A stretch of 64,000 nt of DNA from Bdellovibrionota bacterium (GTDB taxonomy: Bacteria; Bdellovibrionota; Bdellovibrionia; Bdellovibrionales; Bdellovibrionaceae): positions 1-64,000 of the forward strand of contig CAUJGP010000033.1 in the NCBI GenBank assembly GCA_963170155.1. Reading direction: 5' to 3'. Within the stretch, counting starts at the first letter, position 1, and the number at the start of each line of letters is the position of its first letter. The notes below the pieces were generated by a model. It searched no databases. It was not told where the DNA came from and was given only the letters and a program-made list of their open reading frames with translations. This document shows positions 10,914-49,466 of this stretch, one piece after another. The position numbers and the translations under genes are program-made.

Positions 10914-11999
10914 ATGTCTAGTACAGTGCCCCCTGCTTCTTCTCAAGTTTTACCTAACTCTCAAAGCCCTTATCAGTCTTATTGGAATCCGGTACAAGGA
11001 CAAAGAGTTATTGAACCGAAGTCTATGGTTTACCAGTCAGAGATTATGTCAACACTTATGAAGGTTGTTGATAAAGTCGCTAGTTCTACAGCGTCAATAT
11101 TGGTTTTAGGAGAATCTGGAACTGGTAAAGAGTTAATGGCTCATGCTATTCACGAAAGAAGCCCCAGAAGAAATAAGCCTTTTGTAGCTATTAACTGTGG
11201 AGCTCTACAAGAAACCCTTCTTGAGAGTGAGTTGTTTGGACATGAAAAAGGTTCTTTTACAGGAGCTTATAATAGAAAAATTGGTTTGGCCGAAATGGCT
11301 AATGGCGGAACTTTATTTTTAGATGAAATTGGAGAGTTGACCCCTGGGATCCAAGCGAAGCTTCTTCGTTTTCTACAAGAGGGTGAGCTTTATCGTGTTG
11401 GAGGCAAAGATTCAATCAAAGTTGATGTTAGAGTGATCAGTGCGACCAATCGTAATATTGAAAAAGATGTTGCTCAAGGTGTTTTCAGAGAAGATTTGTA
11501 TTACAGAGTTAATACCATTGTTGTCCAAACACCTTCTTTGAGGCAACGTCGCGAGGATATTCCTTTGCTTGTAAGCCATTTTCTAAATCACGGGTCTCAG
11601 GCATTTCTTGGGCGTGGCCGGCAAGTACATGAAGATGCAATGAAACTATTGTGTGATTATGATTGGCCAGGGAATATTCGTGAATTGCAAAATATTTGTG
11701 AGCGTTTACAAATTCTTTGTGACGGGCATATGATTATGCCTAATGATCTTCCAGATCAAATTCGGGCCCCCCAACAACGCCTTCTCATTACTGGATATGA
11801 TGCTAAATTGACTTTGTATGAACTAGAAAAGCGTTATATTTTAAAAGCATTACTTCATTTTAATGGTAACAAAACACAGGCAGCAAATGCGCTTGGGATC
11901 ACTATAAAAACTCTTTATAATAAACTTCATGAATACGGTGAGTTTAATAAATTTGCCATTTACCCTAAAGAGGCGAAGGACGACGCCAATAAAGGTTAA
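10914..11999 (+). CDS. Sigma-54-dependent transcriptional activator (PspF-like, no receiver)
   Basis: The 361-aa protein has a short N-terminal tail (about 38 residues) with no receiver or sensor domain. A full AAA+ activator domain follows: Walker A GESGTGKE (66-73), the sigma-54-contacting GSFTGA loop (113-118), a variant of GAFTGA, and Walker B LFLDEIGEL. A Fis-type helix-turn-helix closes the protein (NGNKTQAANALGITIKTLYN). It activates RNA polymerase carrying sigma-54. Without its own sensor, activity must be set by a partner protein or by its level, as with PspF. Targets are unknown. Its 3' end overlaps convergent lgt by 35 bp. Confidence 0.92.
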   Translation: MSSTVPPASSQVLPNSQSPYQSYWNPVQGQRVIEPKSMVYQSEIMSTLMKVVDKVASSTASILVLGESGTGKELMAHAIHERSPRRNKPFVAINCGALQETLLESELFGHEKGSFTGAYNRKIGLAEMANGGTLFLDEIGELTPGIQAKLLRFLQEGELYRVGGKDSIKVDVRVISATNRNIEKDVAQGVFREDLYYRVNTIVVQTPSLRQRREDIPLLVSHFLNHGSQAFLGRGRQVHEDAMKLLCDYDWPGNIRELQNICERLQILCDGHMIMPNDLPDQIRAPQQRLLITGYDAKLTLYELEKRYILKALLHFNGNKTQAANALGITIKTLYNKLHEYGEFNKFAIYPKEAKDDANKG

Positions 12000-12732
12000 A
12001 TCGAAGACCTGCTATGAATAGGCCGAGAGCCAACCAAAATGAGAGTCCCATATGGAACAATAAAGGGCCTCTTGGATCATTTCGGAATAGTTCCATTGCC
12101 ATGCGATTGATTCCATGACCTACCATCCAGTAAGTAAAAAGTTGTCCCTCGCGAAGCGAGGGACTTTGTTTTTTTTCGATGAAAATTAAAATCAAGTAAA
12201 GGACTAGCTCTCCCATTGAAGCAAAAAGTTGTGTTGGAAGACGTAAAGAGTTTTCTCCGGTATGAATAAGACTATCAAAATGAACCCCGAGGATTGAGTG
12301 AGTCTCTTGACCATAGCAACACCCTTGTAAAAAGCACGCAAGACGTCCTATGGCGTAGCCAAGAGCTAGGATTGGTGCGAAGAGGTCAAGATAAGGAAGA
12401 GGATTTTTTCGTTTTATTTTTAACCAAAGGAGTCCACCGAAAAGGCCTCCTAAAATTCCTCCAAAAAACACGTAACCACCTTCCCAAAACAAGAAGACAG
12501 ATAGAGGGTTTTTGAAGTAATAAGCAGGGGCTTCGTAGAAAACATGGAGAAGCCTTGCGCCTAAAAAACCACAGATTGAAGAAATTATTCCAAGGTCTAG
12601 AGTTTGAAGGACAGGAAACCCGCGCTGTTGAGCGCGATGGCGTAAATAAAAAATCATGAAACAAAAATCAATGCTTAATACGAGATAATAAGTTGATAAG
12701 CTCCATGATTCAAATTGAAACTCTGGATACAT
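11965..12732 (-). CDS. lgt: Prolipoprotein diacylglyceryl transferase Lgt
   Basis: The 255-aa inner-membrane enzyme moves diacylglycerol from phosphatidylglycerol to the lipobox cysteine of prolipoproteins, the first step of lipoprotein maturation. Family signatures are visible: GYAIGRLACFLQGCCYG, LPTQLFAS (the HPTQLYE-like motif), and E-FR-DPRGP near the C-terminus. Seven hydrophobic segments fit the known fold. It lies downstream of lspA on the same strand with a 16-bp gap, so the two maturation steps are probably co-transcribed. Confidence 0.93.
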   Translation of the reverse strand: MYPEFQFESWSLSTYYLVLSIDFCFMIFYLRHRAQQRGFPVLQTLDLGIISSICGFLGARLLHVFYEAPAYYFKNPLSVFLFWEGGYVFFGGILGGLFGGLLWLKIKRKNPLPYLDLFAPILALGYAIGRLACFLQGCCYGQETHSILGVHFDSLIHTGENSLRLPTQLFASMGELVLYLILIFIEKKQSPSLREGQLFTYWMVGHGINRMAMELFRNDPRGPLLFHMGLSFWLALGLFIAGLRFNLYWRRPSPL

Positions 12733-12748
12733 GAATCAAAAATCTCAG

Positions 12749-13258
12749 TTAGGAGCCAGCTGCGACGGGTTTTGCTGCGCTTTTCTTCTCCGTCCACATG
12801 AGAATAGTGAGAATGATAACACCTAAAACAATAGCGCTATCAGCGATATTGAAAGCCGGCCAACTATATTTATTATAGTAATGAAAATCTAAGAAATCGA
12901 TAACATAACGAAATCGAATCCGATCAATGTAGTTTCCAATCGCTCCACCAAAAATGTTACTAAGAGCGAAAATCTGCCAACGATCCTTATCGGGAGCGCT
13001 TCTCAATATAAAATAAATAATGATCATCACAATAGGAGGAACGGAGAGGAAGAAGATTTCACGAAATTGAGGGTGGCTTTCAGCTAAAAATCCAAAAGCA
13101 GCACCAGGGTTTCTGACATAGGTAATATTAAAGTAATTTTCGATTACAGCGATAGATTCACCTAGCTGAAAGCGGGTATGAACGTAAAGCTTTGTAAGCT
13201 GATCCAGGGCGACTGAAAAAGTGCACCAAGCGATGAGAAAGATATATTTAAATTTCAT
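12749..13258 (-). CDS. lspA: Lipoprotein signal peptidase LspA
   Basis: The 169-aa protein has four membrane helices and both catalytic aspartates of signal peptidase II: D121 in the YIDRIRFRYVIDF segment and D140 in FNIADSAIVLG. The NPGAAFGF motif is also present. It removes the signal peptide from diacylglyceryl-prolipoproteins in the inner membrane. It is the upstream gene of an lspA-lgt pair. The di-haem lipoprotein at 7880 is one likely client in this window. Confidence 0.94.
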   Translation of the reverse strand: MKFKYIFLIAWCTFSVALDQLTKLYVHTRFQLGESIAVIENYFNITYVRNPGAAFGFLAESHPQFREIFFLSVPPIVMIIIYFILRSAPDKDRWQIFALSNIFGGAIGNYIDRIRFRYVIDFLDFHYYNKYSWPAFNIADSAIVLGVIILTILMWTEKKSAAKPVAAGS

Positions 13259-38930: not shown

Positions 38931-39283
38931 TAAAAGAATTTTAGGAGAGTTAAATTGCAGTAGTTAGAAATTGAGTTGACAGTTGCTTTCTTGGTGAGCA
39001 GCTTTAATATTAATATAAAATAGTTTGTTACCTTTTTTCCTTTTCTTTTTAACTTTTGTAAGTGCCCTTCGTCCTCAAGTTCTTTGGGTGCTTCAAATGA
39101 GTTAAAGTGATTCGGACGATCCTCAATAATTGTTTCACAATTATTCGAGGTCTCATTTTTAATTACGTATTTATCATATAACTCGTAACCCTTTAATAGG
39201 GTTTCTCTTGGCGTCTTTCCTTTACAGTATTTTCCTTGATTCGTTCGCTCATTATTATAGTAATCCATGTATCGATGTTGCAC
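38930..39283 (-). pseudogene. Remnant of an IS481/IS3-type transposase (C-terminal end)
   Basis: Only the end of a DDE integrase-core protein remains: YMDYYNNERTNQGKYCKGKT followed by PRETLLKGYE is the classic C-terminal signature (YN-ERTHQG--C-GRTP) of IS481 and related transposases. The catalytic D, D and E regions are missing. Sequence after about residue 45 is not recognisable. The upstream side is cut where the IS66 fragment begins (about 39275-39283). Confidence 0.7.
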
Positions 39284-40248
39284 TCTCTAAATACTGTGAT
39301 TTAATTCCTATGAATCGTTATGCGGCGATGGCAGGCCGATCTGGCTTAATCGATTTGCCACCCCACAGTCTTATTGATTCGACTCATTATTTTGCAGAAT
39401 TTGTGATGGGAGTTTATCAAAAAATTAAAGACAAGGTTTTTTCTAGTCGCGTATTACATGCTGATGAAACTCCGCACCGGATGTTGGAGGGAGATGAGAG
39501 CAAGACTTGGCAACTGTGGGGATTTTCCACCAGTGATGCCTGTTATTTTGAGTGTCACGATACGAGATCGGGAAATGTGGTCAGCGATGTTTTAATTAAT
39601 TCTAAATGCGAGATTTTAATTAGTGATGCTTATTCTGGCTACAGTAAAGCTACTCGTGTCTCTAATGAAGTTCGAATGCGAGAGAATAAACCATTAATTA
39701 GAAATGGGTACTGCAATGCTCATGCTAGGAGATATTTTTTTAAAGCCAATAAAAAACACACTACCCATGCTTTATTTTACTTATCCAAGTTCCAAAAAAT
39801 ATATCGAATAGAAAAAGAAGCCAAAGGCAAATCCCCTTCTGAAGTTCTTAAATTAAGAGAGCAGATAAAACCTCACTTTGAGGAAATGAAAGTACAAGCT
39901 GAGAAAGAAGTAAATCTTTATCCTGAAAAACATCAATTTACTCAAGCGATAAATTATTTTATTAATAACTACGATGGTCTCACTCTTTTTATTGCTGATG
40001 CTGAGGTGGCCATCGACAATAATCAACAAGAAAGGCTTCTACGAAGTCACGTTATTGGGAGAAAAACCTGGTATGGCACCCATTCCAAAAAAGGGGCTGA
40101 AACTGCAGCTATATTTTTTACGATTGTTGAGTCTTGTAAACTCATCGGTGTTAATCCGAGAAAATATTTTAAAGATCTAGTCCAAGATCTACTCGATGAT
40201 AAAAATCCGTATACTCCAAATGAATACAAAGGCTTAGTTAAAAGCTGA
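39275..40248 (+). pseudogene. Truncated IS66-family transposase (TnpC, C-terminal part)
   Basis: The frame contains clear IS66 TnpC blocks: LHADETPHRML (first catalytic Asp), LISDAYSGYSK (second Asp), YCNAHARRYFFKA, and IDNNQQERLLRSHVIGRKTW, including the last catalytic Glu, with the IS66 C-terminal tail up to VNPRKYFKDLV. The N-terminal third (zinc-finger and helical region) is absent, and no TnpA or TnpB is nearby, so the element is dead. It runs into the IS481 remnant on the left and stops 28 bp before the end of the vWA gene. Confidence 0.85.
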
Positions 40249-40276: not shown

Positions 40277-43200
40277 TTAACGGCGAGACCACGCGCGAAG
40301 ATTTTCTAGAGCATCCTTTTCAGGATAAGTCATATCCTTCCAAGATCGTCCGGTTAATTGTTGATAGGATTCTATTACCGATTCTACCAGACGTTGCTTG
40401 AGAAGTGGATCCATCTTCAAAGAGCTCATCAAAGTTTCAAGTTGAGTCAAATTAAGGGCCTCTTCTAGGCCTGGAAGCTTGCTCACGTCGCCTTGGGTTG
40501 TTTGTATTTGAGAAAGGGCGCGATCTATTTGGGATGGATCTCCCTTTTGTCTTGGATCCACACTGATATTTTCTAGGAGTCGATTGATTTCAGCAATCAT
40601 GGTGCCTGAAATTCTTTGCGTGGTAGCAAAAGCTTGAGGATCATATTCCGCAGTCACCTCTCCGACCGCTTTCATCATTTGAGTATCCATTTTTCTAAAG
40701 GTGGGTTTACCAGAAGCAAGCTTATCGTTTTGAGCCAGGGTCTTGAGTGTTTCGTTGACTTGATCACCGATATTAACAAAATTCATATTGATCTGAACTG
40801 CTTTGGGAATAGATCGTCGTTTCACTTCTAACTGCTCCATGTTGATCATTGAGCCTCCGTCCGTAAAGAGAACCATATTGGCTTTTTGGAAAAGCTTCTC
40901 ACGACCTTGAGTGGATTTATTTTGATAGCTTGTGCTGATAATATCATAAAAATTTTCCACCGCTTTTTGAATATTAGTGCCACCCGAGATTTCAGTGCGC
41001 ATACTCATGCGACGTGATAGAAAGTTTTGAGCATCTTCGCGGGAGGCAATATGTACTCCTTGGAGAAGATTATCATTGAATGGGATCAGGTAAATTTCGT
41101 GCGTGGGTCTACCGATCGCATCGGTTTCACTCAAAGCCTTATCCACAAAGGCCATAACCAGGGCATCTTGACTCTCGATGGGACGGTTCTTCATTGATCC
41201 TGAAATATCGTAATAAATAACCGAAACTTTTCTCTCTAAAGGATTTTTAGGATTGCTCACGCGTCTAGTTTCAAGACTTCCAATAGCGAACTGTCTCCCC
41301 TGTAAGGTGGGAGCAAACATGTGCTCCCCCGGACGTAGGGTCCAAAGCATTTTGGCAAAATCAAGCGGGCTTCTAGTGATGATCAAATCTTGGCGAGGTT
41401 TCGGCACCAGGCTTCTATTTAGGGTGGGTTCATCCTTCCACTGGGGCTCGGGAGTGGAATTCAAAGTCATATCCACAAAGTCACTTACCGCTCCCATTTG
41501 CAAGAGGGGTTTAAGTTTTCCATTTACCATGTCTTGAGCCAGCCTGATGTTCGCATCACTTCCCAGTTGGTCATAATCTTTACCGTACTGCTTCGATAAC
41601 CAGTTTTTTGAGATATTTCCAGGTAAGCTCTGGAGTAACTCTTGAACGGCATCGTACTCCTTTGAATTCTCGTGTTTGATTTGGTCCAGGTTTCGAATGA
41701 TTCCTTCTATGGAATGGAGTGCTTCGGTTTCTTTTTTTGTTAAGCTTCGATGTTCACTCAGTGCTAAGAGGAGTCTTTGCACCATCATCAGTTTTTGTTT
41801 AGCTTCTCTTAAGTTGTTTTGACTAAATTCAACACGAATATCAGAAAGGAATGTTTGTAATCCACTAAATTTTGCAAATCTTGCGTCATTGATAAGAATG
41901 AATATTTTTCCTCTCGATCTTTCAACTGCATTTTCCCAATTGGAATTTTCATTTAATGTCTCTAACACCGAGTTAGATTCGTTTTGAAAGGGAGTTTTGT
42001 GACCCTCATGGATCAAATGCTCTAGGAGCATCAGCTCATTGCGCTTCAGGACGCGGTCGATGAGACCCAGGTTTTGCTCACCCTTACGTCTTTGAGTTGA
42101 TTTAGCATTAATAAGATCATCAATTCTCTTCGACCCGGGTGCCCCTTCACCCTCTTGCTCGCCTTCTTTTTTATTCTTTCCATCATCACTAGCTTTACCT
42201 TCGTTCTCTTTGTCTTTTGGGTCTTTGTCCTCTTTTTTGCTGTTGTCCTTTTCACCGTCTTTGACTCCATCTTTATCAGAATCTTTTTTCTCCGCTCCTT
42301 TGCCTTCACCTTTTGAGGGCTGAGTTTTATCTTTAGGGGGTTGCTTCTGACCTGACGGAGTCGGTTTAGGCTCTTCACGTTCTACGTCAGTAGGAGAGGA
42401 CTGACTCTCAGGGGTGTTATTTTTGGGAGTCATATCAAAAGGCACCCACTGCTTTCCCTCAAAGACTTCGATCCAAGCATGAGCAGGATCTGCCGATTTG
42501 ACGACGTGAAGCTTTTCTTGATTAACCGTTTTGATTCCGGCTGAAGTTCTTCCTCCCGCAATCCTCACTGGTAAATTTAAAACATCTCTTAGTAATAAGC
42601 CACCAATCCACGCGGCCCCATCACAGTTGAAAGCTCCGACCTGGGCCATAGCCATGGGCTTTGGCATTGTCGTTAAAAGTTGATTAAACTTTTGATCTAT
42701 CTTCGTAAGCTCTCCCTCACTGATTTTATCTCCCTTAGAATAATACAAAAACCCACCTTCTTCAGAAAGATACTTCTCTAACCGAGAAGCCGCCTCCATT
42801 GGTGGAAGCCCTTTGAGGCTTTGAGTAAAGAGAAGTAAATGCTGGGGCCAGAGGCCGAGCTCTTGAGCGCTTACAGCTCTAGGTGGTACAGGTAGTGCGG
42901 ATTCACTTTGAATCTTTACCAGTCCCAAGGAGACGGGATTCTTTGAAGAGACTTGAACCTTAAACTCCCCCGGACCTACTTCCACAATGCGGTGATCCGC
43001 GTATTTTCCAGGAATAAGGGTGTATCCGTAGGGAACTGGTACATCAACACTGGTTTCACCGAGAGGATTAATGATCAGTTTTTTAGTCACTTGAGTTTCG
43101 GCTTGAAGTGACTCTCGCCCTACGGGAGTCGAGGACCAATCCTTCAGATTAAACTGATCGTAAATTTTTTGGCGCAATAGACGCTTAAAGACATTGACGT

Positions 43201-43918
43201 CAGTGAGAACGAGATCGACGTTTTTTTTCTTACCCTTGCCATCATTAGCCAAGTCTTTATTCTCTGGCTTATATTTATCTTGAGTTTTGTTCCACTCAGG
43301 GTCTTCTTCTTTTTCGTCTTGTTCTTGGTCTTTCTTTTTCTCTTTTTCCTTTTCTTCTTCTTTCTTTTTCTGCTCTTCTTTTTGAATATCCTCTTTGGTT
43401 TTCGGAAACTCCACTCTGGTTTCTATCGTGGATATCAGACGAAGAGCCTCAAGAGCTGCAAAAACTTGAAGATCGGAGTTCGGTTTTTTACTAATAGTGA
43501 TCAGTTGATTTACGACGGTTCTCTTGATTCGAATAAATTCAGCATGACTTAAGATGCGTCCTTGATCCATAGATCCAAGTAAATTCATTAGGTCTTTTAA
43601 TACTGGAAGCTCATAAGACATACGCTTATAAACTTCACCAATACGATCTGGGTTCTGACCTACTGATTCAAGGGGATGCTCTAAATGAGAGACATTTTTT
43701 TGCAGCCTCTGTCTAATCTTTAGCCATAATTGTGGACGTGGAGAGAGATCCGATTTTTTATAAAGCTCCCTCCATTGTTCGACAAATGTAGGCTCAGTTT
43801 TATACAAACTCGAAAATATTTCCGCGCACTTAGGCGTTGATGCGACGACTTCGATGGAGATCGAACTCATCGCACAGATAAAGAAAAAGAGTGTAATAAA
43901 AAAGCGCCATTTCAACAT
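40277..43918 (-). CDS. Exported transglutaminase-like / von Willebrand factor A protein
   Basis: The 1213-aa protein has a signal peptide (ITLFFFICAMSSISIEVVAS), then the motif CAEIFSS at residue 31. A helical region follows, then a KE-rich stretch (about 180-235). A transglutaminase-like domain carries the triad C432 (FNCDGAAW), H480 (PAHAWIEVF) and D495 (WVPFDMTP). A long K/E/D/G/P-rich linker (about 505-600) leads to a helical region and then a vWA domain with the MIDAS motif DISGSM (D904). vWA proteins are the usual partners of MoxR ATPases, and transglutaminase domains recur in MoxR operons. Here both are on one exported protein, divergent from an exported double-MoxR protein. ATG 43918 is chosen over TTG 43936. 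The substrate and cell location are not known. Confidence 0.82.
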   Translation of the reverse strand: MLKWRFFITLFFFICAMSSISIEVVASTPKCAEIFSSLYKTEPTFVEQWRELYKKSDLSPRPQLWLKIRQRLQKNVSHLEHPLESVGQNPDRIGEVYKRMSYELPVLKDLMNLLGSMDQGRILSHAEFIRIKRTVVNQLITISKKPNSDLQVFAALEALRLISTIETRVEFPKTKEDIQKEEQKKKEEEKEKEKKKDQEQDEKEEDPEWNKTQDKYKPENKDLANDGKGKKKNVDLVLTDVNVFKRLLRQKIYDQFNLKDWSSTPVGRESLQAETQVTKKLIINPLGETSVDVPVPYGYTLIPGKYADHRIVEVGPGEFKVQVSSKNPVSLGLVKIQSESALPVPPRAVSAQELGLWPQHLLLFTQSLKGLPPMEAASRLEKYLSEEGGFLYYSKGDKISEGELTKIDQKFNQLLTTMPKPMAMAQVGAFNCDGAAWIGGLLLRDVLNLPVRIAGGRTSAGIKTVNQEKLHVVKSADPAHAWIEVFEGKQWVPFDMTPKNNTPESQSSPTDVEREEPKPTPSGQKQPPKDKTQPSKGEGKGAEKKDSDKDGVKDGEKDNSKKEDKDPKDKENEGKASDDGKNKKEGEQEGEGAPGSKRIDDLINAKSTQRRKGEQNLGLIDRVLKRNELMLLEHLIHEGHKTPFQNESNSVLETLNENSNWENAVERSRGKIFILINDARFAKFSGLQTFLSDIRVEFSQNNLREAKQKLMMVQRLLLALSEHRSLTKKETEALHSIEGIIRNLDQIKHENSKEYDAVQELLQSLPGNISKNWLSKQYGKDYDQLGSDANIRLAQDMVNGKLKPLLQMGAVSDFVDMTLNSTPEPQWKDEPTLNRSLVPKPRQDLIITRSPLDFAKMLWTLRPGEHMFAPTLQGRQFAIGSLETRRVSNPKNPLERKVSVIYYDISGSMKNRPIESQDALVMAFVDKALSETDAIGRPTHEIYLIPFNDNLLQGVHIASREDAQNFLSRRMSMRTEISGGTNIQKAVENFYDIISTSYQNKSTQGREKLFQKANMVLFTDGGSMINMEQLEVKRRSIPKAVQINMNFVNIGDQVNETLKTLAQNDKLASGKPTFRKMDTQMMKAVGEVTAEYDPQAFATTQRISGTMIAEINRLLENISVDPRQKGDPSQIDRALSQIQTTQGDVSKLPGLEEALNLTQLETLMSSLKMDPLLKQRLVESVIESYQQLTGRSWKDMTYPEKDALENLRAWSRR

Positions 43919-44043
43919 GAGAATAGATTTGAGCAATGTTCATACCATAAAAAATTAGGATCTTGATTTCGCATTAATAAATGGGTCAGCACGTATGGCA
44001 CGCTTATTGAATATACTACAGATTTACTTTCAAAGGACTATTT

Positions 44044-47000
44044 ATGAAATGCATGCGACCACATATATATAGATTTGGAATTTCAACTTTATTGATCTCA
44101 TGCTTATTTTCCTTTGATGTCGCATCTGCCGCTCTCAATTGTTCTGAAATTTTCTCTTCCCAATTTAAATCATCACATCCTGCAATCCAAGTCGCTCCTC
44201 GCACAACAAATGAGGCCTGGAATGAATCCACTACCGCATTAAAACAGATCAACCAAGCCGTCTACGGTCGCAATCAGGTCATTGAGGCATTAACCACTGC
44301 AATTTTAGCGAAAGAATTCGTTTGGATTAATGGTGAACCCGGCGGTGCTAAAACATTTTTATCGCGTCTCATGTTCCAATCCGTGCTGAATTCAATTCCT
44401 GAAAAGGACAAAAAGATCTTCGTCCTTCAGTTCCATAAGTTGATCTCGGAAGGAAAGATTTCGGGCTTTCAGAAGTTCTCTTCTATGATGAAGGACGGGA
44501 AATACGAAATTGAAACCGAGTCCTCGCTTGTGGGCGATAAATTCCTCTTCCTGATTGCGGACGAAGCGGAGAAATCAAATCCCGCTGTTCTTAATGCGCT
44601 TCTTTCTGTGTTGAACGAACGAAAAGCCTTTTTAGGCGCGAGAGTCGTGGACAGCATCTTATCCAGTGGTGTTTTCACTTCCAATAAAGCGACGGGTGAA
44701 TTCATCCAGGGTTCCCTCAACGACCGCTCATCGAGTGAGGCTTTACTTGATCGAATGGCAATCAAGATTCACATGCTGAATCAACAGTTGAGCCCAAAAG
44801 AATCGGTCGCGATGTACGACTTGGTGAAAAATCCGGGTAAGTTAAAGATCACGCTTCCCTTAAGAGAACTTGAATCTCTCGTGACGAAGGTGAAAATCCC
44901 TGACGAGATGATGGCGGAAATCGTCTCGATTGTGCGTGAATTTGATCGTTCCGTCACTAAAAAATCAGATCAATCAAGAGCCGCCGTGAGATATGGCGAA
45001 GCTGAAACCGAATACTTCCCAGCCAATCAATTCTCAAACCGTTCGGTGCGCAGACTTGTCCAAATTTTTAAGGTGGCCTTTATTGCTAAGCAATTAGCCG
45101 ATGGCATTCCGTTTGATCAAATGCGACTTCAGCCAGGGCGAAAAGACTTAAGTCTTCTTTCGCGCAGCGCTCTTTATACGGGTCCGGCAGGACTTAAAAT
45201 GAAGACCTATGCGGTGACCGAAGTTGATAACGGTATTAAAGTGACCTCGCCCTTTGGGTCTGAATCCAAAATGGCCGTTCAATATAGCCCGTACACCGGA
45301 GAACTTTTCTTATCTGACGGAGCTGGGCGGACTCAATTCACGTTTGCCCAGAGCCAAGAAGGTGGATGGGCCTTAAAATCAAAGTCCGTCGATTTCTCTG
45401 ATTGGTCCGCGGATAAAGGAGCCATCAATGGTCTTGCTCCCAAAATCAAAACTGTGGTCGATGCGAACAAAATTGATCTCGCAAAACCTAAGTTTGACGT
45501 CGATCAGGGAGTTGATCAGCTTCTCGCGAAGGGCACCGTCAAGGAGCGCACGCGTTTAGAACTTGAAAGTATCAAGAAAGACTTAGAACAGTTCGCTAAT
45601 GTTCTGAACCAGCATTTCGATCGAGATCAAAAGCCGCAAGTACCTGCTGCCACAAAGTTACTCCCAGCTCGCAGTGAAAAAGAAAAGCGGCAATTTCGTC
45701 GCGAACTGTTGACGGCATCTCTTGAGCAACGTGTCTCTCGCTATTATGAATGGATGGGCTATGAAGTCCGTGCCTTAAAGCAAAGATTCGTCGAGCTTGA
45801 ACACTCCATTGAAGCTCACTTGACCGGCATTTTATCTGACAATCATCTGTATGTGTTCGGGCCTCCCGGTGGTGCGAAAACCGCCCTCGCTGAGGTCATC
45901 TTGAAGGCGGAGCTTCGCAAACTGAACGCCGATCAAGTGGATCAATTTGTTCAAACAACGCTCTCGCAAATAGGACAAGACCAAAAATTTTTGACAGCGA
46001 TCTTAAAACGCATTCGCAAGGAAAAGCCTAAAGAGTTTGATCGCTTCCTTCTGCAGTTCCATAAGCTTTTGCCGGAAGGTGTGTTGATTGGTTTTCCGAA
46101 GGTCGAAAAACAACTCAACGAAGGGAAAGAAGAAATCGAAGTCTCTTCATCCTTGGCGAATCAAAAATTCGTCTTCGCTATTCTCGATGAAGTGGATAAG
46201 GCTAACCCGCAAACCATCACGGCCCTTCTTTCGATTTTGAACGAACGAGAAGTCTTCGCCGGAAACCAGGTGATCAAAACGGCTCTCAGATCCGCGATTC
46301 TTACGTCGAACAAAATGCCGAGCGAATTCTTGGACTCTTATCACGAAGACAGATCTACCGGCGAAGCGGTCATGGACCGCCCGGTGAATAAGGTTTACGT
46401 CTCGAATAAAATCTCTTCGGAAGAAGCGCTCACGCAATTTCTGATCAATCTTGAAAAAGGGATCAGCCCCAACTGGAAAGGTTTGCTTGCCATTGGGGAA
46501 CTTCGACCTCTTGTGAACCAAGTGGAGTTTGAAACTCCGGCGCTGAAAGAAATGCTCGCAAAAATCCATGAGAAATTTTTAGGCCTTCGTATCAAGAAAG
46601 AGGAAGAAACCAGAAAAGCACACCGCATGGATCCGCGCGAGTTCCCAGATTATTATGTTTCCGCGGCAGGTTCAGCTTCAGACCGAACCATGATTAAACT
46701 TTTTGATCAATTCAAGTCTAGATTTATTGTCCATCAATTGATGAGTGGTGTGGCTTTTAAAGATCTCCGCACCACCATTGAAATGAGAGATCTGGGACTT
46801 TTCTTTGAAGGGCTTGGTTATTGGGCACCACAAAAGATTGAAGCCTCTTACAATCAAGATGGTCTTCTTACATTCAAAAGCGACTCACAAGTAATCGAAC
46901 AACTCATTGGTTCTGGAGTTGTAGACTCTAGGGTGAAATTCCATCTGGAAATGATGATGGAAGAAGCTAAGGACTATGTACAAGTTTTGAATTCAACGGT

Positions 47001-48198
47001 GGGAGAATTCATGCAGGAGTACAAAAAAGAAATTACGAAGTACCCGGATCTTTTCCCAAGTTTATTCGTTCATGAACGAACTGGCGGACAGACTTTGGCG
47101 GCGCCACAAAAAGGCATCACACCAGAGATTCAAATCCAGATCAATAAGGCGGTCCGTGATCTTTCAGGATTGAGATTAAGTCTTGATATCGCAAAGTCAA
47201 AAGGCACAAGCTCCATTGAGCTTACGGCCTTGGCTACGGATTATAAAAAGAAAGAACAAGCTCTCGTCGATTATCTTGAAAAACATAAAATTATGACTCG
47301 GCTCGAGCTTGTTGAAAAAATGAAGCAAGAAATTTTAATCCTTCAAAGTCAGAAGCAGTCGGAAAAAAAGCAAGATGATCGACTCAAAGAAGAAGAGGCT
47401 CGCAAACGACGCGAACAAGAAAGACAAATAAAAGAATTAGTGATTGATGGTCATCGAGCCATCTTTCATCGAATAGAGCCAGGTTCATTTAAAATGGGTG
47501 AAGTGGGAAGTCAGATTGATGTTACTATCAAAAAACCCGTTGACATGATGGCAACTCCGACGACTCAAGTGATATGGAAAAAAATTGCAGAGCTTATCAA
47601 CAGTAAACTAGGTGGTAAGTATAAAATCGATGCTGATCCATCCTATTTTAAAGGTGATACGAGGCCCGTAGAGCAAGTTTCTTTCGATGATATTCAAAAT
47701 TATTGGATCAAGGGACTTAACGAGCTTTCCCAAGTTGGCGAGCCCGTACTGATGGAGCTGATCTCTGGCCATAAGAAAGGTGATGTCTATCGCCTACCGA
47801 CAGAGGCTGAATGGGAATTCATAGTTCGTGGGCGTGGCCAGTATAACGACACCTATCACTTCGGAAGCCAGAAATCTCAGCTGAGAGCTTATGCCTGGTT
47901 CAGCAGAAATGCTGGAAGTCAGACTCATCCTGTCGGAAAAAAGAAGCCTCTCATGATTGGTGGTAAGAAATTCTACGATATGCATGGAAATGTCTGGGAA
48001 TGGGTTCAGGACTGGTATCAAAGCTCACTCCCTGGTGGAACGGATCCTCAAGGCCCGGCACAAGGCTCCGACCGCGTTGTGCGTGGCGGCGGTTGGAACG
48101 ACGATGCGTTCAACCTGAGCTCTGGTAACCGTGGCTACTGGAGGCCCGGCGGTCGCAACCTCTATGTGGGTTTCCGCCTTGTGAGGACAGCCCCGTAG
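44044..48198 (+). CDS. Exported protein with two MoxR-type AAA+ domains and a C-terminal FGE/C-type-lectin-like domain
   Basis: The 1384-aa protein has a signal peptide (GISTLLISCLFSF, cleavage after VASA), then CSEIFSS (C33). AAA+ domain 1: Walker A GEPGGAKT (97-104), Walker B LIADE (170-174), sensor TSNK. AAA+ domain 2: Walker A GPPGGAKT (606-613), Walker B ILDE (713-716), TSNK. Both carry the same LQFHKL--EG--IGF insert and LxSxLNER, so they arose by duplication. A charged coiled coil (about 1098-1136) leads to an FGE-sulfatase domain (1137-1384) with PTEAEWEF (1252-1259), MHGNVWEWVQDW and RGGGW (1347-1351). The FGE cysteines are absent, so it should bind rather than oxidise. An AAAGGA lies before the ATG. 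An exported ATPase is odd, as the periplasm has no ATP. Base composition is visibly more GC-rich than the neighbours. Confidence 0.85.
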   Translation: MKCMRPHIYRFGISTLLISCLFSFDVASAALNCSEIFSSQFKSSHPAIQVAPRTTNEAWNESTTALKQINQAVYGRNQVIEALTTAILAKEFVWINGEPGGAKTFLSRLMFQSVLNSIPEKDKKIFVLQFHKLISEGKISGFQKFSSMMKDGKYEIETESSLVGDKFLFLIADEAEKSNPAVLNALLSVLNERKAFLGARVVDSILSSGVFTSNKATGEFIQGSLNDRSSSEALLDRMAIKIHMLNQQLSPKESVAMYDLVKNPGKLKITLPLRELESLVTKVKIPDEMMAEIVSIVREFDRSVTKKSDQSRAAVRYGEAETEYFPANQFSNRSVRRLVQIFKVAFIAKQLADGIPFDQMRLQPGRKDLSLLSRSALYTGPAGLKMKTYAVTEVDNGIKVTSPFGSESKMAVQYSPYTGELFLSDGAGRTQFTFAQSQEGGWALKSKSVDFSDWSADKGAINGLAPKIKTVVDANKIDLAKPKFDVDQGVDQLLAKGTVKERTRLELESIKKDLEQFANVLNQHFDRDQKPQVPAATKLLPARSEKEKRQFRRELLTASLEQRVSRYYEWMGYEVRALKQRFVELEHSIEAHLTGILSDNHLYVFGPPGGAKTALAEVILKAELRKLNADQVDQFVQTTLSQIGQDQKFLTAILKRIRKEKPKEFDRFLLQFHKLLPEGVLIGFPKVEKQLNEGKEEIEVSSSLANQKFVFAILDEVDKANPQTITALLSILNEREVFAGNQVIKTALRSAILTSNKMPSEFLDSYHEDRSTGEAVMDRPVNKVYVSNKISSEEALTQFLINLEKGISPNWKGLLAIGELRPLVNQVEFETPALKEMLAKIHEKFLGLRIKKEEETRKAHRMDPREFPDYYVSAAGSASDRTMIKLFDQFKSRFIVHQLMSGVAFKDLRTTIEMRDLGLFFEGLGYWAPQKIEASYNQDGLLTFKSDSQVIEQLIGSGVVDSRVKFHLEMMMEEAKDYVQVLNSTVGEFMQEYKKEITKYPDLFPSLFVHERTGGQTLAAPQKGITPEIQIQINKAVRDLSGLRLSLDIAKSKGTSSIELTALATDYKKKEQALVDYLEKHKIMTRLELVEKMKQEILILQSQKQSEKKQDDRLKEEEARKRREQERQIKELVIDGHRAIFHRIEPGSFKMGEVGSQIDVTIKKPVDMMATPTTQVIWKKIAELINSKLGGKYKIDADPSYFKGDTRPVEQVSFDDIQNYWIKGLNELSQVGEPVLMELISGHKKGDVYRLPTEAEWEFIVRGRGQYNDTYHFGSQKSQLRAYAWFSRNAGSQTHPVGKKKPLMIGGKKFYDMHGNVWEWVQDWYQSSLPGGTDPQGPAQGSDRVVRGGGWNDDAFNLSSGNRGYWRPGGRNLYVGFRLVRTAP
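48093..48195 (+). other. Variable-region-like end of the lectin domain (possible DGR target)
   Basis: Codons for residues 1351-1378 run from the W of RGGGW to GFR. Many codons are NNC/NNT (AAC, GAC, GAT, TTC, AAC, AGC, AAC, GGC, TAC, GGC, GGT, AAC, CTC, TAT), as expected if AAC/AAT codons of a template had been changed at adenines. The framework W-N...NR...P..R....GFR matches known variable proteins of diversity-generating retroelements. A GC-rich GGTTTCCGCCTTGTGAGG follows, like an initiation-of-homology element. No reverse transcriptase or template repeat is in the window, so the call is provisional. Confidence 0.5.
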
Positions 48199-48285
48199 CT
48201 CTTATCCTTCTAGCCCCTGATATAGGTTGGACAATATTTACGCGTCGACTTGATGTGTAAAGTAATCTCTATAGGGGTTATGAAA

Positions 48286-48552
48286 ATGCATTCTGCAGAA
48301 CTAAAAGAGCAAGTGGTTAAAGAGATCGAAGAAGTTGGCAATATCAGTCTTGTCTGCAAAAGACATGGGTTAAAAAGCAGTACTGTCCACGGTTGGCTTC
48401 ATAAGGTTAAGAACAAAGACAAAATCGCTCAGTCTAAATCTAATCGTGAAGCTCAAAAGAAGATCAAAGATCTTGAGCTTCAGGTGGCAGTGTTGACCTC
48501 ATTGTTAAAAAAAACATACCCACTCTGGAACAACGACGAACCACTGTCTTAG
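48286..48552 (+). CDS. IS3-family transposase OrfA
   Basis: The 88-aa protein starts with a helix-turn-helix typical of OrfA (MHSAELKEQVVKEIEEVG, then LVCKRHGLKSSTVHGWLHKV). A leucine-zipper-like helix (IKDLELQVAVLTSLLKK) follows, used for dimerisation. AGGGG 8 nt before the ATG at 48286 decides the start over ATG 48280 or TTG 48250. It binds the element ends. The A8 run at 48507-48514 near its 3' end allows a -1 shift into orfB. Confidence 0.85.
   Translation: MHSAELKEQVVKEIEEVGNISLVCKRHGLKSSTVHGWLHKVKNKDKIAQSKSNREAQKKIKDLELQVAVLTSLLKKTYPLWNNDEPLS
48507..48514 (+). other. Programmed -1 frameshift site (A8)
   Basis: The orfA reading TTA AAA AAA ACA places a slippery A-AAA-AAA heptamer at 48507-48513. 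After a -1 shift the next codons read N-I-P-T-L-E-Q and stay open for 317 codons to 49466, giving an OrfAB fusion of the usual IS3 kind. Confidence 0.8.
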
Positions 48553-49466
48553 AGTTTAAAGATAAAGCTAACTTTTCTAAAGTTTGCCTGTATGCAAGTC
48601 TCTCAAGGTCTTGTGCCTACTTTAATAGGAAAATACAGGTTGTTAAGCGCCCTGGACGTCCCCCACCAGGGTTTACTGTAAACAGAGATGGCAGAGTCAT
48701 TAAAGATGAGACCCTTGTTACTATTTTAAAAGAGTACCGATCACAGATAGAGTTCGCTAATGGCGGTGGTGCCAGGATGCTAAGCCACTACTTGGCGGTT
48801 GAGCAGAGTGTTTATATTAATCACAAAAAGATCTACCGACTATGTGATGAGTCTAATTTACTGTTATTTAAGAGAGCTGATAAGAAATCCAGAAAATTTA
48901 AAAAAGTAAGATGCAATTACTCTGAAGTCTCAGGACCCAATGAGTTATGGCAATTTGATTTAAAATATATTTGGATCCATGGAGAGAATCGTTGGTGCTT
49001 TTTCCTGGGGTTTATAGACGTGGTCTCTAAAAAAATCACTGGTTGGTATGTGGGAAGAACCTGTAAGTCTGGCGACTTGGTGTTTACACTTGATCAAGCC
49101 ATTAAAAGCGAGAGAATTGCTTCAGATCATCCTCTAACAATTAGGTCAGATAATGGTCCGCAGATGTCGAGTAATAGGTTTTATTTTTATTTAAAAAACT
49201 TAGAGAAGAAACTAACTCACGAGTTTATCCCACCAAGGTCTCCGGACAGAAATGCTTACATAGAGGCCTTTAACTCGATATTAGAAAAGGAAGTCTTACA
49301 GGTGCAGTATTTTAGAAACTTCGAAGAGGTGTATTTATCAATGATCAGGTTCATAGAGTTCTATAACAACAGAAGGTTACATGGTTCTTTAGGTAATCGT
49401 AGTCCAAAGATGTTCATCGATGGCATAAATAATGGAGATATTACACCCAGAGTCGTCGCCGTCTAG
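48513..49466 (+). CDS. IS3-family transposase OrfB (made as OrfAB by frameshift)
   Basis: The frame is open from the slippery site at 48513 and encodes about 317 residues. It begins with the IS3 HTH_21-like region (VCLYASLSRSCAYFNRK, GGGARMLSHYLAVE). The integrase core carries the DDE triad: D in LWQFDLKYI, D in IRSDNGPQMSS, and E in RNAYIEAFNSILE. The C-terminal EFYNNRRLHGSLGNRSPKMF block is complete. An independent start at 48777 would lose the N-terminal part, so expression as OrfAB is likely. All catalytic residues are present and no frame is broken, so the element may be active. Confidence 0.88.
   Translation, partial: NIPTLEQRRTTVLEFKDKANFSKVCLYASLSRSCAYFNRKIQVVKRPGRPPPGFTVNRDGRVIKDETLVTILKEYRSQIEFANGGGARMLSHYLAVEQSVYINHKKIYRLCDESNLLLFKRADKKSRKFKKVRCNYSEVSGPNELWQFDLKYIWIHGENRWCFFLGFIDVVSKKITGWYVGRTCKSGDLVFTLDQAIKSERIASDHPLTIRSDNGPQMSSNRFYFYLKNLEKKLTHEFIPPRSPDRNAYIEAFNSILEKEVLQVQYFRNFEEVYLSMIRFIEFYNNRRLHGSLGNRSPKMFIDGINNGDITPRVVAV

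Follow-up and report, generated by a model that had tools for sequence, protein, structure and literature searches.

RavA-ViaA of E. coli is a couple formed by a MoxR ATPase and a von Willebrand factor A (vWA) protein; it is cytoplasmic, has one MoxR domain, and carries no transglutaminase, sensor or signal peptide. In the TgpA system, the transglutaminase is membrane-bound, with a cytoplasmic ATPase and a cytoplasmic vWA protein; in the MoxR-DUF58(vWA)-TgpA operon of P. aeruginosa (PA2875-2874-2873), we take the neighbours of the TgpA gene to be MoxR and DUF58. The TgpA gene is co-transcribed with two neighbours and is critical for viability, and in vitro the periplasmic part of TgpA acts as a transglutaminase (PMC3507681). 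In MoxR-vWA couples, the vWA metal site captures a peptide and ATP hydrolysis remodels and releases it, and the MoxR-vWA-beta-propeller ternary systems associate a bpMoxR-type ATPase and a vWA partner with a variable third component that may bear a propeller (Kaur et al. 2020, PMC7159879). In addition, a secreted MoxR-associated retroelement target was reported by Dore et al. 2024 (PMC10907252). The DNA analysed here, hereafter called the window, is a stretch of 64,000 nucleotides from a Bdellovibrionota bacterium (contig CAUJGP010000033.1), in which two divergently encoded genes, P0001 and P0002, specify a transglutaminase-vWA protein and a tandem MoxR protein ending in an FGE domain, both predicted to be exported. 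From the comparisons reported below, our best reading is that this system is an exported variant of the MoxR-vWA ternary systems combined with the TgpA operon, and we think it somewhat probable that it works as an exported, sensor-gated MoxR-vWA machine.

P0001 (1219 residues; 40277..43936, minus strand) was defined by its reading frame and a domain search and reads from the N-terminus as signal peptide, transglutaminase fold, charged linker, helical region and vWA domain. The vWA domain (40721..41224, minus strand) is matched by Pfam (E 2.8e-7) and has an intact metal-ion-dependent adhesion site (DISGS at 41195-41209), and the region C-terminal to it is mostly helical in the predicted model. 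The Pfam scan of P0001 gave no match to transglutaminase and found no beta-propeller. An AlphaFold2 model of residues 245-520 (predicted local distance difference test score 89.5) had as its best fold match the periplasmic domain of P. aeruginosa TgpA (E 2e-9, whole length), and apart from TgpA the fold search returned no match with E < 0.1. This beta domain and transglutaminase fold is encoded at 42407..43204 on the minus strand, and over 18 P0001 homologues the catalytic residues C438 and H486 are invariant and D501 is near-invariant, which points to a TgpA-like transglutaminase with its Cys-His-Asp triad present. The fusion of a transglutaminase to a vWA domain, proposed in the initial annotation, was confirmed in this way, with the enzyme now refined to a TgpA-like one. 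The charged low-complexity linker (42092..42406, minus strand) evolves faster than the rest of P0001. Finally, no hydrophobic segment was seen in P0001 besides the signal peptide, meaning that it is not a multi-span membrane protein.

P0002 (1384 residues; 44044..48198, plus strand, as are all its features) contains two MoxR AAA+ domains. In the first (44233..45183; Walker A GEPGGAKT at 44332-44355), Walker B, sensor 1, the arginine finger and sensor 2 are all intact, and so are all catalytic residues of the second (45766..46893; Walker A GPPGGAKT at 45859-45882). They are followed by a helical adaptor (47089..47463) and an FGE / C-type-lectin-fold sensor domain (47473..48186). Pfam matched bpMoxR (E 2.7e-28, three stretches), AAA_5 and FGE-sulfatase (E 9e-28), the score against bpMoxR PF20030 being 98.9 bits for a cut-off of 27, and among solved structures RavA (3nbx, E 2e-8) is closest in sequence to MoxR domain 1. 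The NCBIfam names GldK, PvdO and RavA were rejected, as all scores were far under cut-off. Thus, P0001 and P0002 contain the elements of a MoxR-vWA couple, an intact MoxR-clade AAA+ ATPase and a genetically linked vWA with an intact metal site. The domain make-up first read from the two genes is borne out by Pfam and the fold model, and the suggested link to MoxR-vWA conflict systems is supported.

Export is predicted for both proteins. The signal peptide of P0001 (MLKWRFFITLFFFICAMSSISIEVVAS; 43838..43918, minus strand) lies inside the protein whether translation begins at the TTG at 43936 or at the alternative ATG at 43918. That of P0002 occupies 44044..44133, with cleavage after VASA as predicted by eye, and AAAGGA, resembling a ribosome-binding site, stands upstream of its ATG1. 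The possible starts of P0002 are codons 1, 4, 17 and then 110, with none between the signal peptide and ATG110; as ATG110 falls past the first Walker A motif (residues 97-104), the leader is not removable without loss of the ATPase. An N-terminus made of a positively charged segment, a run of hydrophobic residues and an AxA-like site is shared by the homologues of both proteins, even where identity falls to about 15-20%. By one fixed rule, 23 of the 25 exported MoxR homologues and 19 of the 23 vWA homologues bear a leader, most of those failing the rule being plainly leader-bearing by eye, while none of the 24 canonical MoxR controls from the same phylum does. This conservation and the positions of the P0002 starts uphold the signal peptides noticed at the outset and indicate that they are not start-codon artefacts. 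P0002 was also considered as a lipoprotein (LLISC), and this was rejected: the LLISC cysteine lies within the hydrophobic run and homologues do not retain it, whereas C33 is kept.

This kept residue belongs to a cysteine tag found shortly C-terminal to the leader in MoxR, vWA and sensor-type proteins, often in the form C-x-x-[LIF]-[FYL]. Mature P0002 has no cysteine other than C33 (CSEIF, 44140..44142), and in P0001, C37 (CAEIF, 43826..43828, minus strand) is near-invariant among homologues and is accompanied by the catalytic C438. The tag was present in 24/25 MoxR, 20/23 vWA and 42/45 neighbouring sensor-type proteins, and it is the sole cysteine of the mature chain in 20 of the 25 exported MoxR proteins; other cysteines number 0.22 per 1000 residues there, as against 0.88 in canonical MoxR proteins. 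At one locus, L205, the tag is missing from the MoxR and vWA proteins alike. The background set combined the window with 400 kb sampled from its genome; five of the 120 seemingly leader-bearing open reading frames there, P0001 and P0002 included, satisfied the motif rule, a contrast that is descriptive as the sets were assembled by us and the rule was set after the sequences had been inspected. The three other frames, one of which has a ClpX-like zinc finger, look like chance matches, and the CxxLF form is nearly absent from the other leader-bearing proteins of this set. Taken across the three protein types, the pattern suggests that the tag cysteine joins or places the parts of the system.

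A profile search for relatives of P0001 found them in 29 of 325 genomes of the phylum, belonging to 26 of 165 genera. The same profile gave 0/395 and 0/398 genomes in samples of two other phyla, searches made without their own positive control, the profile having worked within the home phylum; a plasmid search for P0001 homologues found none. The MoxR and vWA genes are adjacent or one sensor gene apart in 23 loci (L148-L157, L159, L193-L199, L202-L205, L208), and their co-occurrence in homologues, set beforehand as a test of the proposal, is thereby borne out. The other loci are weak matches or are interrupted by contig ends; the only complete vWA gene with no visible MoxR neighbour is that of L207, whose contig ends shortly after. 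In nearly every complete locus, a MoxR protein with a signal peptide is encoded next to a vWA protein with a signal peptide. Three forms were distinguished. The transglutaminase accompanies a tandem MoxR in the window and in L148-L154, L193, L194 and L204, and a single short MoxR in L156, L157, L195-L199 and L203; in L155, L159, L202, L205 and L208, a single longer MoxR goes with a vWA protein that has no transglutaminase. This recurrence indicates that the MoxR-vWA pair is a lineage and not a chance fusion. The vWA protein of L159 (6331-9942) has a very long SKD/SKQ repeat where the transglutaminase region would be, and similar simple repeats occur in L209 and L201.

At many loci, one to several extra genes (about 350-570 residues), often in tandem, adjoin the MoxR-vWA pair. 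Their products begin with a signal peptide, continue with a helical part and end in a WD40 or other beta-propeller, or in an FGE domain; sensors of beta-propeller type were seen in L149, L156, L194 and L196 and separate ones of FGE type in L203, L210 and, weakly, L195. The stretch of P0002 N-terminal to the FGE domain, that is, the adaptor, is homologous to the N-terminal helical region of the L149 propeller protein (11722-13197, E 5e-8), at a locus where motor and sensor are encoded apart. The window is therefore the compact form of the locus, in which two genes encode all three functions and sensor and motor are one protein; the FGE end is an exchangeable sensor module, replaced by a beta-propeller in relatives. 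Thus, the fusion of FGE/lectin to MoxR given by the initial annotation holds in the window, but relatives carry a separate gene or a beta-propeller instead. A stretch resembling the FGE tail was also noticed near residues 113-145 of the MoxR frame of L153 (9455-13165, genome G044), N-terminal to the MoxR domain, and is perhaps a remnant or the product of an over-long start.

The motor itself is strongly conserved. All 25 first MoxR domains have the Walker A lysine, the Walker B DE, the sensor-1 asparagine, the arginine finger and the sensor-2 arginine, and the catalytic residues of the second domain are intact in every complete tandem form. When the window was compared with three relatives, no segments proved better conserved than the MoxR domains (77-86% identity), against 38-58% for the adaptor, 52-68% for the FGE domain and 35-68% for linker, adaptor and FGE overall. 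A motor that never meets ATP should not retain these residues; their conservation thus implies ATP at the site of action, most likely a site fed by the ATP of another cell.

The FGE end also bears traces of a retroelement. In the relative G044, a reverse transcriptase adjoins a template repeat (L237 7918-8043), and the variable repeats of two FGE genes differ from it at template A in 19/20 and 12/13 cases; in G008, this holds for 19/20 differences. On this pattern of substitutions we regard retroelement diversification as proven in these two relatives. The diversified FGE gene on contig C14 of G044 is 89% identical over 706 bases to an FGE gene that adjoins the MoxR-vWA pair on a separate contig, C9. 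In the window, the end of P0002 (48064..48189) resembles a variable repeat and matches the G044 template repeat; over 125 bases, differences fall on 14/30 A and 9/95 non-A positions (p=2.5e-5), and given this enrichment at template A the FGE tail looks like a former retroelement target. Active diversification in the window's genome was rejected, as no template repeat or matching reverse transcriptase was found there; the sole reverse transcriptase found (contig C35) is of a different, longer type (425 residues) resembling those of relatives without a template nearby. A 23-base match 3' of the P0002 stop to a contig of the window's genome, also numbered C9, was rejected as a template, being part of a longer repeat resembling an insertion-sequence end. 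Two side observations were made among the relatives. A retroelement target of 455 residues in G008 (L238 3094-4461) is lipoprotein-like (GWLGCTH) with a C-terminal FGE. Besides, a further family of exported, cysteine-tagged proteins of about 1050-1130 residues with a C-terminal FGE (L237 2459-5629, L161 4384-7788, L162 1945-5256 and 5305-8448) has a region that is nucleotidyltransferase-like by eye (LFGGTASSYLHY...DLDIVVDG), the G044 member (L237 2459-5629) having a proven variable repeat; this family is possibly a second exported nucleotide-using system.

The surroundings of the locus look mobile. The G+C content at third codon positions is 0.40 and 0.46 in the two system genes, against 0.24-0.39 in nine other window genes, and the pair is flanked by an IS66-family transposase (39208-40248), the frame of which converges on the 3' end of P0001, and by an rve-type integrase (48777-49466). 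Taken with the patchy distribution, these features suggest horizontal transfer. The integrase is part of an insertion-sequence-like stretch (48205-49466), whose end sequence is common with contig C9 of the same genome and which begins about 10 bases or less from the P0002 stop, the C-terminus of P0002 being apparently intact.

Compared with the beta-propeller ternary systems, the present one is alike in its bpMoxR-type ATPase, its vWA partner, its patchy distribution and the P-loop form GxxxTAKS, found in some members (L159, L208). Its third component is variable and can carry a beta-propeller, as in L149, L156, L194 and L196, but has an FGE in the window, L203 and L210. It differs in that every component has a signal peptide, a term that does not occur in PMC7159879, and a shared tag cysteine, in that a TgpA-like transglutaminase sits on the vWA protein, where no propeller was found, and in that the third component is an FGE or a propeller on a helical adaptor. 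With the P. aeruginosa operon it shares the trio of ATPase, vWA protein and transglutaminase, but here the transglutaminase and vWA are fused, soluble and exported along with the ATPase. The systems with retroelement-diversified FGE targets are alike in having a MoxR-associated FGE with a diversified tail; one of their targets bears a signal peptide and the FGE is usually on the vWA protein (PMC10907252), whereas here it is on the MoxR protein or on an exported adaptor protein encoded separately, and export extends to MoxR. As one feature of the ternary systems (the propeller on vWA) and two of the TgpA operon are lacking, we filed the system as a MoxR-vWA variant that is a member of neither. 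In the open-access full texts searched, we found no description of a fully exported ensemble, of a TgpA-vWA fusion within a ternary system or of a cysteine tag common to the parts, so that the exported form thought to be new is apparently unreported in that literature.

How might such a system work? For everything after export, the site of action and the ATP source included, we infer the following scheme, in which the best reading is that the system remodels or cross-links protein targets outside the cytoplasm. The parts would assemble after export, their N-termini probably linked via the tag cysteine. The FGE end would bind a ligand on a foreign protein or cell, and binding would be relayed via the adaptor to the MoxR ring, whose ATP hydrolysis would move the vWA partner holding a target peptide at its metal site. 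This movement would remodel the target and present it to the transglutaminase, which would cross-link or cut it. The system would probably act on the cell surface or within another cell, the most likely site being a contacted, invaded or lysing neighbour whose ATP feeds the motor. Predators are well known from the Bdellovibrionota, and prey cells offer one source of ATP; action inside prey is possible.

The boldest reading, which we hold to be somewhat less likely than not, is an AAA+ motor outside the producer's cytoplasm: a cysteine-tagged MoxR-vWA-transglutaminase machine, specific to the phylum, that reaches the surface or the inside of other cells and is driven by target-cell ATP, with sensors diversified by retroelements in some lineages. 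Several points weigh against the exported, sensor-gated machine. The periplasm normally lacks ATP, so an exported AAA+ motor requires an ATP source that is unproven, and localisation is deduced from hydropathy and comparison across homologues. The system is missing from most genomes of a genus of the same family (g7, probably Bdellovibrio), and it is therefore not a core or general predation tool. Nor is the transglutaminase an obligatory output, since the P0001 homologues of L155, L158 and L159 are without it. That the proteins are not exported at all, the N-termini being dispensable or anchors and the domains forming an ordinary cytoplasmic MoxR-vWA system, would agree with the standard view that places ATP only in the cytoplasm and with the location of MoxR elsewhere. 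We hold this to be very unlikely, as positively charged n-regions ahead of the hydrophobic stretch predict the remainder on the outer face, the leader and tag cysteine are kept in three unrelated protein types, the scarcity of cysteines in MoxR is expected of exported chains, and no start gives the P0002 P-loop without the leader. The signal peptide may serve as a mere anchor, but even then the protein would be exposed to the periplasm.

If the proteins are exported, they could serve the producer itself. An exported counterpart of the TgpA operon could assemble or cross-link the cell's own periplasmic or outer-membrane proteins while turning over little or no ATP once exported, for instance with the nucleotide pre-bound, and the fold match to the periplasmic domain of TgpA, whose gene is co-transcribed and critical for viability (PMC3507681), suits this. 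We consider such envelope maintenance unlikely, since the fully conserved arginine finger and sensors argue for true ATP turnover, the exchangeable tandem sensors and retroelement diversification fit housekeeping worse, and the patchy distribution, high third-position G+C and flanking transposases suit better the recognition of changing partners. A little less doubtful is an outward-facing version of the proposed conflict systems, in which surface sensors detect phage, competitors or kin and the MoxR-vWA-transglutaminase contains the invader by cross-linking. The bpMoxR family, the FGE and beta-propeller sensors, the template-directed diversification in relatives, the mobile-looking locus and the secreted target of Dore et al. 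(PMC10907252) all speak for own defence. On the other hand, either the attacked cell itself or a neighbour would need to supply the ATP, neither a death nor a nuclease effector domain was found, and the PADLOC defence models gave nothing above chance, with only a weak P-loop match (E 9e-4).

The system joins the TgpA operons with the MoxR-vWA conflict systems, and the single-cysteine N-terminal tag common to all its parts gives a direct experimental handle. MoxR ATPases are understood as cytoplasmic chaperones, and here is a lineage in which the ATPase, the co-chaperone and the sensors would all be exported. Predicted export combined with retained chemistry would mean either that ATP reaches secreted machines, most plausibly from the target cell, or that an AAA+ protein works after export by a route not yet known.

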